DNA of 32,582 nucleotides from positions 1-32,582 of the forward strand of contig JAIOAW010000029.1 in NCBI GenBank assembly GCA_019873625.1, read 5' to 3'. Source of the stretch: Chloroflexota bacterium (lineage in GTDB: Bacteria; Chloroflexota; Anaerolineae; UBA1429). The position numbers and the translations under genes were made by a program. Numbering within the stretch: position 1 is the stretch's first letter; each line of letters opens with the position of its first letter. This document shows positions 2,249-7,672 of this stretch, in pieces. The notes under the pieces are model-generated. The model did no database searches and was not told the DNA's origin. It saw only the letters and a list, made by a program, of their open reading frames with translations.

Positions 2249-3845
<1,597 letters not shown>

Positions 3846-3849
<4 letters not shown>

Positions 3850-5570
3850 GCCTCCCCTCCTTGCCGTTCGCACGCGGCAGACTGCGCCCGCACCTTGATG
3901 GGGCGGCGGAGCATCTGATGGATGGGCTGCCCCACGGGGACGATTGGGTACACATTATGCTCTTGCTCGATTTGAAAGTCTATCAGCACGGGGCCTTCCA
4001 TCGCCTCGGCCTGTTGGACGGCCCCCACCACGTCCTCTTTTCTCGTGACGCGCAGCCCAGGGATGCCGTAGGCCTCGGCGAGTTTGACGAAATCCGGCCC
4101 CAAGAGGGGCGAGCCGGAATAGTTCTTGTTGTAAAAGAGTTCCTGCCACTGGCGCACCATCCCCAAAAAGCCGTTATTCAAAATGGCGATCTTGAGGGGC
4201 AACTTTTCTTGCACCACGGTGGCGAGTTCTTGCAGCGTCATCTGAAAGCCGCCATCTCCGGCCACCACCCACACGCGGCAATCGGGCCGGCCCATAGCCG
4301 CGCCGATGGCCGCCGGCAAGGCGAACCCCATCGTCCCCAAGCCGCCGGAGGAGATCAACCCCCCTGGGCGGTTGTGGAGGTAATATTGCGCCTCCCACAT
4401 CTGGTTTTGGCCTACGTCAGAGACCATAATGGCCTCGCCGCAGGTCGCCTCCCAAATGGAGCGGATGACGTATTGGGGCACGAGTTCATCCGTCTCTTGC
4501 CAGAGGATGTCATGCGCCAAGGTATCCTCCCGCCATTTGGCGATGCATTCCAGCCACTCGGTGTGCTCGGCCTCGCGCACCAGCGGCAAGAGCGCCTGGA
4601 GCACATTCCGCGCATCGCCCACGATGGGCACATCCACGCGGATGCGCTTGCTGATTTCCGCCGGCTCGATATCGGCGTGGATGACCTTGGCCTTGGGCGC
4701 AAAGGTCGAGGCCGTGCTCGTGAGGCGGTCATCGAAGCGGGTGCCAATGCCAAAGATGAGGTCGGCCTCCTGCATAGCCCAGTTGGCATAGGCCTCGCCG
4801 TGCATCCCGCCCATCCCCAGGCAGAGGGGGTGCGTCTCGGGGAGCGCGCTTTTGCCCAAGAGGGTCGTTACCACGGGGATGTTCGCCTTTTCGGCCAGGG
4901 CGCGCAGTTCCGCCTCCGCATGGGCGATGAGCACGCCGCGCCCGGCGATGATCACCGGCCGCTGGGCCGCGTTGATCAACTCGGCGGCCTGCTTGATCTG
5001 CCGAGGGTTGCCACGCACGTGCGGCCGGTAGCCCGGCAGGTAAACCTGCTCGGGATACTCGAACTCGCACTCGGCCTGCTGGGCATCTTTGACGATATCA
5101 ATGAGCACGGCGCCCGGCTTGCCCGTGCGGGCGATGTAAAAGGCCTCGCGCACGGAACGGGCCAAGTCTTTGACGTTCGTGATGAGATAGTTGTGCTTGG
5201 TGATGGGCAGGGTAATGCCCGTGGTATCCACCTCTTGAAAGCCATCCGTGCCTAGGGCGCTCGTGGCCACCTGCCCCGTAATGGCGACGATGGGCGAGGA
5301 ATCCATCTGCGCGGTGGCGATGCCCGTTACGAGGTTCGTGGCCCCAGGGCCGGAGGTGGCCATACAGACGCCCACCTTCCCTGTGGCGCGGGCATAACCA
5401 TCGGCCGCGTGGGCCGCGGCCTGCTCGTGGCGCATCGTGACGTGATGGACAGGGTACTTGGGCATCTCGTCATAGATGGGCAAAACGGCCCCCCCGGTGA
5501 TGCCGAACACCACCTCCACGCCCTCGCGCACCAAACATTCCCACAAAATCTGCGCTCCGTTCAATCTCAT
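3846..5570 (-). CDS. ilvB: Acetolactate synthase large (catalytic) subunit
   Basis: Thiamine-diphosphate enzyme that joins two pyruvates to acetolactate, or pyruvate and 2-oxobutyrate to acetohydroxybutyrate. The 574-aa product begins MRLNGAQILWECLVREGVEV. The catalytic glutamate lies in MRHEQAAAHAADGYA (about residue 47). SGPGATNLVTGIA is present, and the ThDP/Mg motif GDGGFQ...ILNNGFLG begins at about 437. The ATG at 5570 follows a GGAGG element 11 nt upstream. A GTG at 5588 in the same frame would overlap that element and is less likely. It is the second gene after the leader, 50 nt after ilvD, and overlaps ilvN by ATGA. Confidence 0.97.
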
Positions 5571-5620
5571 CGTCGTCTTTTCCTCCACTGGGTAAAGGCC
5601 GCGTGGGTAAGCCCCGTTTT

Positions 5621-7306
5621 CTACTCGTCCTGCAAAATGGCCCCCGTGCTGGCCGAGGTAACAAGGTGAGCATAGCGCCGCAAATATCCCCCTTTGACGC
5701 GCGGCTCAAAGGGCGGCAGGGCCGCCAAGCGGCGGGCGATCTCCTCATCGGAGACGTGCAGGGTCAGTGCGCGCTGGGGAATATCAATGGTGATGAGGTC
5801 GCCCTCTTGCACGGCGGCCAGCGGCCCCCGTGCGGCGGCCTCCGGCGAGATGTGCCCGATGGCCGCGCCGCGCGAGGCCCCCGAAAAACGCCCATCCGTG
5901 ATGAGGGCCACCTTATCATCCACCCCCATACCGGAGAGGATCGAGGTGGGCGTCAGCATCTCGCGCATACCGGGGCCGCCCTTTGGCCCCTCGTAGCGGA
6001 TGACGAGGACATCTCCCTCTTTGAATTGTTTCGCCAAGATGGCCGCCGTGGCCTCCTCTTCCGAATCGAACACGCGGGCCGGGCCGGTGTGGCGCATCAT
6101 CTGGGGGGCCACCGCCGCGCTCTTGACCACGGCGCCCTCCGGGGCCAGGTTCCCAAAGAGGAGCGCCAACCCCCCCGTGGGGGAGTAGGGATCCTCGGCC
6201 GGGCGCACCACGGCGCGGTTCACCAGGCGCTCATCGGGCGCCCAGCGCCCGCCGGGGGCCAGGTTCTCGGCCACGGTGCCGCCCGTTACGGTGAGGGCCT
6301 CTCGCTTGAGGAGGTTCAGCCGCTCCAACTCGCGCAGAATAGAGGGGATGCCGCCCGCATAGTACAAATCTTCGATGTGCTGGTTGCTGGCGGGCGAGAG
6401 TTTGCACAAGTGCGGCGTGCGCTCGCTGAAGGCATTCAGGTCGCGCAGGTTCACCCGCACGCCCGCCTCGTGGGCGATGGCCAAAAGATGCAGGACGGAG
6501 TTCGTCGAACCGCCCATAGCCATATCCGTCGTAAAGGCGTTGTGGAAGGCCGCCTCGGTGAGGATATCGCGCGCGGTGATGTTGCGCCGCCAGAGTTCCA
6601 TCACCTGCATCCCCGCCGTGCGGGCGAGCGCGATGCGCCGCGAACTGACGGCCGGGATGGTGCCGTTGCCCGGCAGGGCGATGCCCAGCGCCTCGCACAG
6701 GCAGGCCATCGTATTCGCCGTGAACATCCCCGCGCAGGAGCCGCACCCCGGGCAACAGGCCTTTTCGATTTGTTCCACATCGCGGTCGCTCAAGGCGCCC
6801 GAGGTGGCCCCGCCCACGGCCATAAAGGCGCTGTTCAGGTCGAGGATTTGGTCGCCCCGGCGGCCGGCCAGCATCGGGCCGCCGCTCACGAACACGGTGG
6901 GCAAGTTGAGCCGCGCGGCTGCCATCACCATGCCGGGGATGATCTTGTCGCAAGAGGCCACGAGGACGATGGCGTCGAAAGCATGGGCCTGGACGACCGC
7001 CTCGACGGAATCGGCGATCAACTCGCGCGAGGCGAGGGAATATTTCATCCCCGCGTGCCCCATCGCGATGCCATCGCAAATGCCGATGGTGTGCGCCTCA
7101 AAGGGCGTGCCGCCCGCCATATAGACGCCATCGCGCACGGCCTGGACGATGCGATCCAGGTTCATATGGCCGGGGATAATGTCAGTAAAAGAGCCGATGA
7201 CCCCCACAAAGGGGCGGGCCATTTCCTCATCGGTGCGGCCCAACGACCACAAAAGGGAGCGGTGGGGGGTGCGCTCCAAGCCCCGTTTGATGACGTCGCT
7301 TCGCAT
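5621..7306 (-). CDS. ilvD: Dihydroxy-acid dehydratase
   Basis: Iron-sulfur enzyme that dehydrates 2,3-dihydroxyisovalerate and 2,3-dihydroxy-3-methylvalerate to the oxo acids, the last step shared by Val, Leu and Ile before transamination. The product is 561 aa. [10 protein letters not shown] (about 117) and [17 protein letters not shown] (about 184) hold cluster cysteines. The first site reads [12 protein letters not shown] without a cysteine, like the E. coli type, so a [4Fe-4S] cluster is likely (family inference). The start at 7306 (MRSDVIKRG) has AAGGAG 9 nt upstream. The open frame reaches 7372, but that extension overlaps a terminator-like hairpin. It is the first structural gene behind the attenuator-like leader. 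Confidence 0.97.
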
Positions 7307-7344
7307 CGTGAACTGCTCCTTTGGTGAACTGCGCGGCGGATATG

Positions 7345-7392
7345 AAAAAGACGCCAAGGGATAATTCGGCAACGATGGCCGGTGGCGTCTTT
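7345..7392 (-). terminator. U-tailed hairpin just upstream of ilvD (candidate leader terminator)
   Basis: The 10-bp perfect arms are 7347-7356 and 7383-7392 (AAAGACGCCA / TGGCGTCTTT on the transcribed strand). A 4-bp inner stem is at 7367-7370 and 7378-7381. On the minus strand the 3' arm runs directly into a five-U tract (7349-7345). It ends about 40 nt before the ilvD start, where an attenuator terminator would be expected. The 26-nt apical region is larger than in a textbook terminator. Confidence 0.6.
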
Positions 7393-7450
7393 GCGGGTTC
7401 GCGGCGTTGTGAATTCGTTTTGGGGGCTGTGCCCAAGCACACGGCCCTAA

Positions 7451-7497
7451 CAGATGATAAGGGCCTCACCCGGTTGGGTGAGGCCCTTGAGAATCTG
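7451..7497 (-). promoter_or_regulatory. Strong leader hairpin (attenuator segments 3:4)
   Basis: A perfect 13-bp stem is formed by 7459-7471 and 7476-7488, with a 4-nt loop. A further 5-bp outer stem is at 7451-7455 and 7493-7497. It lies 18 nt after the stop of the leader ORF. Its upstream arm on the minus strand (7470-7483) can instead pair with the 3' end of the leader ORF (7526-7539) over 14 positions with one mismatch. The two folds are mutually exclusive. No U-tract follows on the minus strand, unlike a classical intrinsic terminator. Confidence 0.75.
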
Positions 7498-7515
7498 GAG
7501 TGATACGATCTGGCG

Positions 7516-7611
7516 CTAACGCGATCCTCGCCCAACCGGCAGCGGCTCCTCTACAATGAGGAGCGCAACTAGGACGAGGACAATGATGATGCCAAACGAC
7601 ATCGTGCTCAT
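7516..7611 (-). CDS. Putative branched-chain amino acid leader peptide (31 aa)
   Basis: ORF of 31 codons starting ATG at 7611 and ending TAG at 7516-7518. Residues 8-20 read IIIVLVLVALLIV, with 12 of 13 codons for Ile, Val or Leu, the end products of the operon. A GAAAGG element (7624-7629) stands 12 nt upstream, slightly far but usable, and a sigma70-type promoter lies 33-61 nt upstream. Within the ORF a 7-bp hairpin (7545-7551 with 7558-7564) precedes codons that form the antiterminator strand (7526-7539). The expected role is sensing: ribosome stalling on the Ile/Val/Leu run would favour read-through into ilvD. The peptide could alternatively be a small hydrophobic membrane protein, but the position and codon run favour a leader. 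Confidence 0.82.
   Translation of the reverse strand: MSTMSFGIIIVLVLVALLIVEEPLPVGRGSR
7526..7539 (-). promoter_or_regulatory. Antiterminator strand within leader ORF (segment 2)
   Basis: On the minus strand this reads CCGGTTGGGCGAGG. It is complementary at 13 of 14 positions to the upstream arm of the leader hairpin (7470-7483). It also resembles the downstream arm of that hairpin, as expected when two segments compete for the same partner. It covers about codons 25-29, after the Ile/Val/Leu run, so a ribosome at the stop codon would mask it and a stalled one would not. Confidence 0.72.
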
Positions 7612-7643
7612 CGAGCGGCCAGACCTTTCGTACGGTTAGGTTT

Positions 7644-7672
7644 TATATATCACGGATTGAGCATTTTGTCAA
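7644..7672 (-). promoter_or_regulatory. Sigma70-type promoter of the ilv-leu operon
   Basis: TTGACA at 7667-7672, a 17-nt spacer, and TATATA at 7644-7649, read on the minus strand. Transcription should start near 7636, about 25 nt before the leader ORF and 330 nt before ilvD. The perfect -35 makes this one of the strongest promoters in the window. Confidence 0.85.

Follow-up and report, generated by a model that had tools for sequence, protein, structure and literature searches.

The operon considered here lies on the minus strand of the window, that is, the whole stretch of 32,582 nt that was analysed, and all features described below are read from that strand. It comprises ilvD (dihydroxy-acid dehydratase, positions 5621–7306; TIGR00110, 767 bits against a cut-off of 618), ilvB (acetolactate synthase large subunit, 3846–5588; TIGR00118), ilvN (acetolactate synthase small subunit, 3322–3873; TIGR00119), ilvC (ketol-acid reductoisomerase, 2249–3256; TIGR00465), cimA (citramalate synthase, 640–2271; TIGR00977) and the 5' part of a leuA-like gene (3–608), recognised by a motif in the open frame and truncated by the window edge. 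Ahead of ilvD, a promoter formed by TTGACA (7672–7667) and TATATA (7649–7644) with a 17 nt spacer is followed by an open reading frame of 31 codons (7611–7516) encoding MSTMSFGIIIVLVLVALLIVEEPLPVGRGSR; both elements, proposed earlier in a sequence-only reading, were found in place base for base. A generic promoter scan made no call at 7672–7644, TATATA being without the final T that the scan demands, and the leader has a ribosome-binding site that is either weak or too far off, an AAGG roughly 14 nt upstream.

Residues 8–20 of the leader peptide (IIIVLVLVALLIV, 7552–7590) consist of 12 Ile/Val/Leu and one Ala, the composition that had been claimed from the translation. Directly after this run, and still inside the leader, an inner hairpin is found (GCUCCUC-n6-GAGGAGC, 7545–7564), which in turn is followed by codons 25–29 (CCGGUUGGGCGAGG, 7526–7539), hereafter strand 2. 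The proposed pairing of this strand with strand 3 is correct in its coordinates and extent, since CCGGTTGGGCGAGG (7539–7526) matches CCTCACCCAACCGG (7483–7470) at 13 of 14 positions, and the 13-bp hairpin described just after the leader (strands 3 and 4, 7488–7459) has 13 perfect pairs, a loop of 4 nt and a calculated stability of -27.1 kcal/mol. In the minimum-free-energy fold, Val/Leu codons within the run (strand 1, 7571–7581) can pair with strand 2 (7524–7533) when free of ribosomes, a feature which is not uniform among relatives. Finally, a second hairpin, GCAAAGACGCCA...UGGCGUCUUUUU (7339–7397), conserved in relatives, lies about 40 nt before the ilvD start. Three features are additional to those noted earlier, namely this second hairpin, the inner hairpin and a poor U-run after the 3:4 hairpin.

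The leader region was compared with chance expectation. When the whole window was shuffled 60 times with its dinucleotides preserved, no short frame with 12 Ile/Leu/Val in 13 residues appeared, the fold of the 196-nt leader segment gave z = -6.0, and the strand 2:strand 3 score of the window was matched by only 0.17% of the shuffled strand 2 regions (pooled over 23 loci).

Conservation was assessed by searching IlvD in 60 relatives and taking the upstream DNA from 30 loci, the window's own included. A homologous leader, with a family consensus near IILVLVELLVIEEPLPVGRG, was present at 22 of the 29 other ilvD loci fetched (23 of 30 counting the window), and the expectation that the frame and both helices would be conserved in relatives, with co-varying pairs, was borne out. 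The leader was found in all 13 loci examined from the same family (L002–L013 and L023, window included), and ten further loci, belonging to other families of that class, have it too. It was absent directly upstream of ilvD at the remaining seven of the 30, where the ilvD product is 57–59% identical to that of the window and where, in several cases, another gene stands directly upstream. The leader start has a TTGACA-n-TAtnnT promoter upstream, mostly at 26–51 nt, in 21 of the 23 loci. In 23 of 23 loci the last leader codons (typically CCG GTT GGG AGG) can base-pair with the 5' arm of the hairpin that comes next. Strand 2 falls inside the frame in most loci and starts at a median of 19 nt before the leader stop, at the place that a terminating ribosome would occupy.

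The pairing between strands 2 and 3 shows the signature of compensatory change. Scored with their own partners, the strands of the 23 loci reached 24.7, as against 21.3 ± 0.7 with swapped partners (0 of 20,000 permutations), and over 161 distinct loci of the phylum the corresponding values were 22.7 and 17.6 ± 0.3. The 2:3 structure as named is 87% paired, compared with 39–54% when the partner is slid, and contains 8 pairs changed on both sides against 3.1 in shuffles. RNAalifold, applied to the alignment of 23 sequences, returned 18 pairs, 12 of them with changes on both sides; in the terminator, 9 of 10 pairs show both-side changes in relatives, and in three loci (L018, L022 and L023) matched changes occur together in strands 2, 3 and 4. 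The inner hairpin is, on the other hand, near-invariant, with 98.8% of cells paired in the 23 sequences and 2 pairs changed on both sides.

In order to follow the element beyond these loci, a covariance model (R1) was built from the 23 leader loci, and it was needed because a stricter, sequence-only pattern recovered loci of this type from just 17 genomes. At E <= 1e-4, R1 matched 151 of the 298 genomes examined from the class; at E <= 1e-5 it matched 61 genomes in a 400-genome sample of the phylum, and 24 of these 61 belong to other classes. In a control set of 80 IlvD loci, mostly from other phyla, confident matches were restricted to entries titled Chloroflexi or Anaerolineae (L032, and L108 twice). 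The latter locus (L108, 3627–3971, Anaerolineae FR_5) carries tandem attenuators, one before ilvB and another before ilvD, and the same arrangement is seen in L152 (G199:C154:19766 and 20193). In a Dehalococcoidales bin (bin10; L034, 3866–3972) a divergent leader, MSTQYVTLVLIVTNYFR, recognised by eye, stands with a terminator directly before ilvD; it scores below the model threshold (E 0.22).

Among the 161 distinct loci, 126 stand in front of ilvB or ilvD, and their leaders, taken together, carry mixed Ile/Val/Leu runs. In the nine loci which stand before leuA or leuS, the Leu fraction of the Ile/Leu/Val codons rises to 0.78, compared with 0.47 before ilvB/D (0 of 20,000 label permutations). 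CimA is the first enzyme towards isoleucine, and the two leaders before cimA contain the runs IIIGII and IIIIAIPLII; with Ile making up 0.42 and 0.58 of Ile + Leu + Val they are Ile-enriched, not Ile-only, the lower value falling within the upper range of the ilv leaders. One locus precedes aroF and carries a YYYYYYF run. Its leader, MKNNFAPKYYYYYYFGRIKVRLGESL, is located with a terminator pair of the same type before aroF and aroB (L194, G454:C21, approximately 360–500), and the element is likely to be a Tyr/Phe attenuator. A further leader, MVCGWAFSVNGTTTTSSTTCRGR, ending at its stop codon and having the same strand 2 and terminator, is found before a serA-like gene (L219, 2180–2480, G016:C72), its run being read by eye as TTTTSSTT. 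Since R1 was trained on leaders for branched-chain amino acids (BCAA), in which the inner hairpin encodes Leu-Leu, other specificities are under-sampled and few.

Other loci of the series were also observed. Ile-rich leaders (VIIIIMWVLYY and IMVIIFIMWV) occur in L167 and L278 (genomes G244 and G605), the former, its VIIIIMWV run being read by eye, before genes for a liv-type branched-chain amino-acid transporter. In addition, BCAA leaders stand before open frames of 60–95 codons in L157, L168, L232 and L244 (also L149, L155 and L201), several of which end in HPDWHDPEWRYYHGAWGG or similar; these frames may belong to a family of small proteins, so far undescribed, that BCAA would control.

Judged on the sequences, a codon identity that tracks the downstream gene is what would be expected of codon-addressed sensing. 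We regard it as about an even chance that a single ancestral Chloroflexota attenuator RNA was copied through the phylum and re-addressed by exchange of its leader codons (all three BCAA before ilvB/ilvD, Leu before leuA/leuS, an Ile-enriched run before cimA, Tyr/Phe before aroF, Thr/Ser before serA and an Ile-rich run before liv transporter genes), common descent and convergence of the copies not being separable in the present sample. If true, this single-ancestor reading would amount to a phylum-wide modular regulatory device, and the shared second hairpin would have a function of its own. The series, in which the codons vary with the regulated gene and the RNA scaffold is kept, would offer direct comparative evidence for codon-addressed sensing, and it allows BCAA, leuS and aromatic operons to be annotated in bacteria that are for the most part uncultured.

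Taken together, the element upstream of ilvD is, with high confidence, a ribosome-mediated transcription attenuator of the ilv-leu operon. The logic of ilv/leu-type attenuation, suggested from the window, is backed by the promoter, the leader spacing, the order of the strands, the codon switching and the conserved 2:3 pairing. According to the proposed mechanism, a shortage of charged tRNA for Ile, Val or Leu would make the ribosome stall in the run (codons 8–20), covering strand 1 and leaving strand 2 free to pair with strand 3 as the latter is made; the 2:3 helix would then block the terminator, and RNA polymerase would transcribe into ilvD. With an ample supply of these amino acids, the ribosome would get as far as the stop codon and sit on strand 2, so that the 3:4 hairpin would form and transcription would end. 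With no ribosome on the leader, the 1:2 helix would form in the window genome, followed by 3:4.

Modelling agrees with this picture in its main lines. The geometry of the window and its folding concur in predicting that a ribosome at the stop masks strand 2 and that a stalled one leaves it free. In constrained folding of the nascent window leader, about 12.7 2:3 pairs are expected with the ribosome stalled in the run, as against 0.5 with the ribosome at the stop and 1.5 with no ribosome. The same order, stalled above stop, was modelled in all but two of the 23 loci (L007 and L021). The state with no ribosome was variable, 2:3 pairing being as high as in the stalled state in approximately one third of the relatives, and the 1:2 protector helix is predicted in the window and in some relatives, not universally. 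When the full-length leader of the window is folded, the terminator wins in every ribosome state (0.99). Because the 3:4 hairpin is more stable than the 2:3 helix (-21.3 kcal/mol for the latter in the window), the choice between them would have to be kinetic.

The element could, alternatively, operate through translational coupling, mRNA stability or Rho following translation of the leader, instead of through an intrinsic terminator. In favour of this explanation, the U-run of the window genome is weak (AUCAUCUG, 3 U of 8) and there is a further conserved hairpin near the ribosome-binding site of ilvD. Nevertheless, the U-run is good in most relatives, with at least 5 T in 9 at 98 of the 161 loci, and the terminator stem is the part which co-varies with strand 2, so we consider such a mode of action improbable.

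The second hairpin deserves separate mention. It has a conserved start (GCRAnGRnGCC...GGC), is placed 22–60 nt ahead of the start of ilvD in most relatives (L003–L023), and 5 of its 8 pairs show changes on both sides; one contig (G016:C72) has it in front of cimA and of serA, and L305 in front of thrC. No Rfam match was obtained for it. A plain terminator was considered and not accepted, the U-run being missing in L007, L011 and L022; the hairpin could serve as a second terminator or as a stabiliser, or else be a site for a protein. Against attenuation at the first hairpin it can be argued that its U-run is weak in the window genome, that a simple terminator scan of the window made no call there, and that this second hairpin, with its U-run, lies downstream and would also need to be passed. 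The leader's poor ribosome-binding site, the lack of a universal 1:2 protector and the seven ilvD loci with no such leader count against it as well.

Two further explanations can be set against attenuation, both with little standing. The first is that the short frame encodes a functional small hydrophobic peptide, membrane-bound or toxin-like, which is conserved as a protein and not for regulation. The peptide is indeed hydrophobic, and its ...LVLVELLVIEEPLPVGRG... segment is similar across the family. The conserved C-terminal codons, however, constitute the antiterminator RNA arm. In 14 loci the automatically placed stop falls ahead of strand 2, and a GUUGGG-type sequence is still present in 12 of the 14; the frames of L171 and L245 appear to have been called wrongly. 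Strand 2 is kept even past the leader stop and is therefore conserved there as RNA, a pattern which, as far as the sequences can tell, a protein function cannot explain. Furthermore, depending on which gene follows, the composition of the peptide turns to Leu, to an Ile-rich make-up or to Tyr/Phe, and the leader stands ahead of the terminator pair in every locus examined, making a peptide function very unlikely. The second, under which the frame is incidental and the hairpins are governed by a metabolite riboswitch, a T-box or a protein-binding RNA, would fit a structured leader with alternative pairing in a genome with T-box matches elsewhere, but is to be given equally little credit, as the feature which tracks the downstream gene is the regulatory codon run and no meaningful Rfam family was found at the window or in 20 related loci.

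As regards known RNA families, the Rfam search of the window returned nothing at the gathering threshold or at E <= 10 save for a meaningless miRNA match (E = 6.9), and no T-box (RF00230) was found at the locus or on its contig. Eight T-box matches were located elsewhere in the genome (G000, contigs C1, C5, C10, C12 and C20), one of them upstream of a valS-like gene and another close to a trpS-like gene. Like the T-box, the Chloroflexota element would sense amino-acid supply via tRNA charging, but through the ribosome and not by RNA binding, and on the predicted elements the two tRNA-sensing strategies coexist in this genome.

The closest classical systems are the enterobacterial ilvGMEDA, ilvBN and leuABCD attenuators, which have Ile/Val/Leu leader codons, strands 1–4 with mutually exclusive 2:3 and 3:4 pairings, and the order promoter, leader, terminator, operon (that of leu being Rfam Leu_leader, RF00512). 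The leader codons, the exclusivity of the two helices and this order are common to the Chloroflexota element, which differs in showing no sequence relationship to them in the Rfam searches, in having ilvD as the first gene, in carrying strand 2 mostly inside the leader frame, and in the extra conserved hairpins within the leader and before ilvD.

In another phylum, the actinobacterial ilvB leaders and the Corynebacterium ilvB-II motif likewise place a BCAA-rich leader with a terminator before ilvBNC (PMC1262725, PMC10272879, PMC11857589); in C. glutamicum, a mutational study backs attenuation (PMC11857589), and Seliverstov (2005, PMC1262725) notes that replacing codons of the ilvB leader of S. 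coelicolor had no effect. No homology between these leaders and the Chloroflexota element has come to light. The ilvB-OMG motif, with 41 representatives in several phyla, and the ilvB motif, with 7 in Leptospira (PMC10272879), are also structured RNAs with BCAA-rich upstream frames before ilvB; the Chloroflexota element gave no Rfam match that would link it to ilvB-OMG, but the Rfam library may not include that motif. Leader-peptide attenuation has been reported in proteobacteria, actinobacteria and some Firmicutes (PMC1262725, PMC2965389, PMC9413887, PMC10272879, PMC11857589). The earlier statement that no case had been described in Chloroflexota holds only for the open-access literature searched, outside which the wide comparative analysis of Lopatovskaya et al. 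(2010) could contain some cases. The mechanism is classical; the RNA family, its phylum-wide spread and the codon-swapped copies appear to be new. Ribosome-mediated attenuation, best known from proteobacteria and actinobacteria, would in this way reach the scale of a phylum in Chloroflexota, beside the T-boxes.
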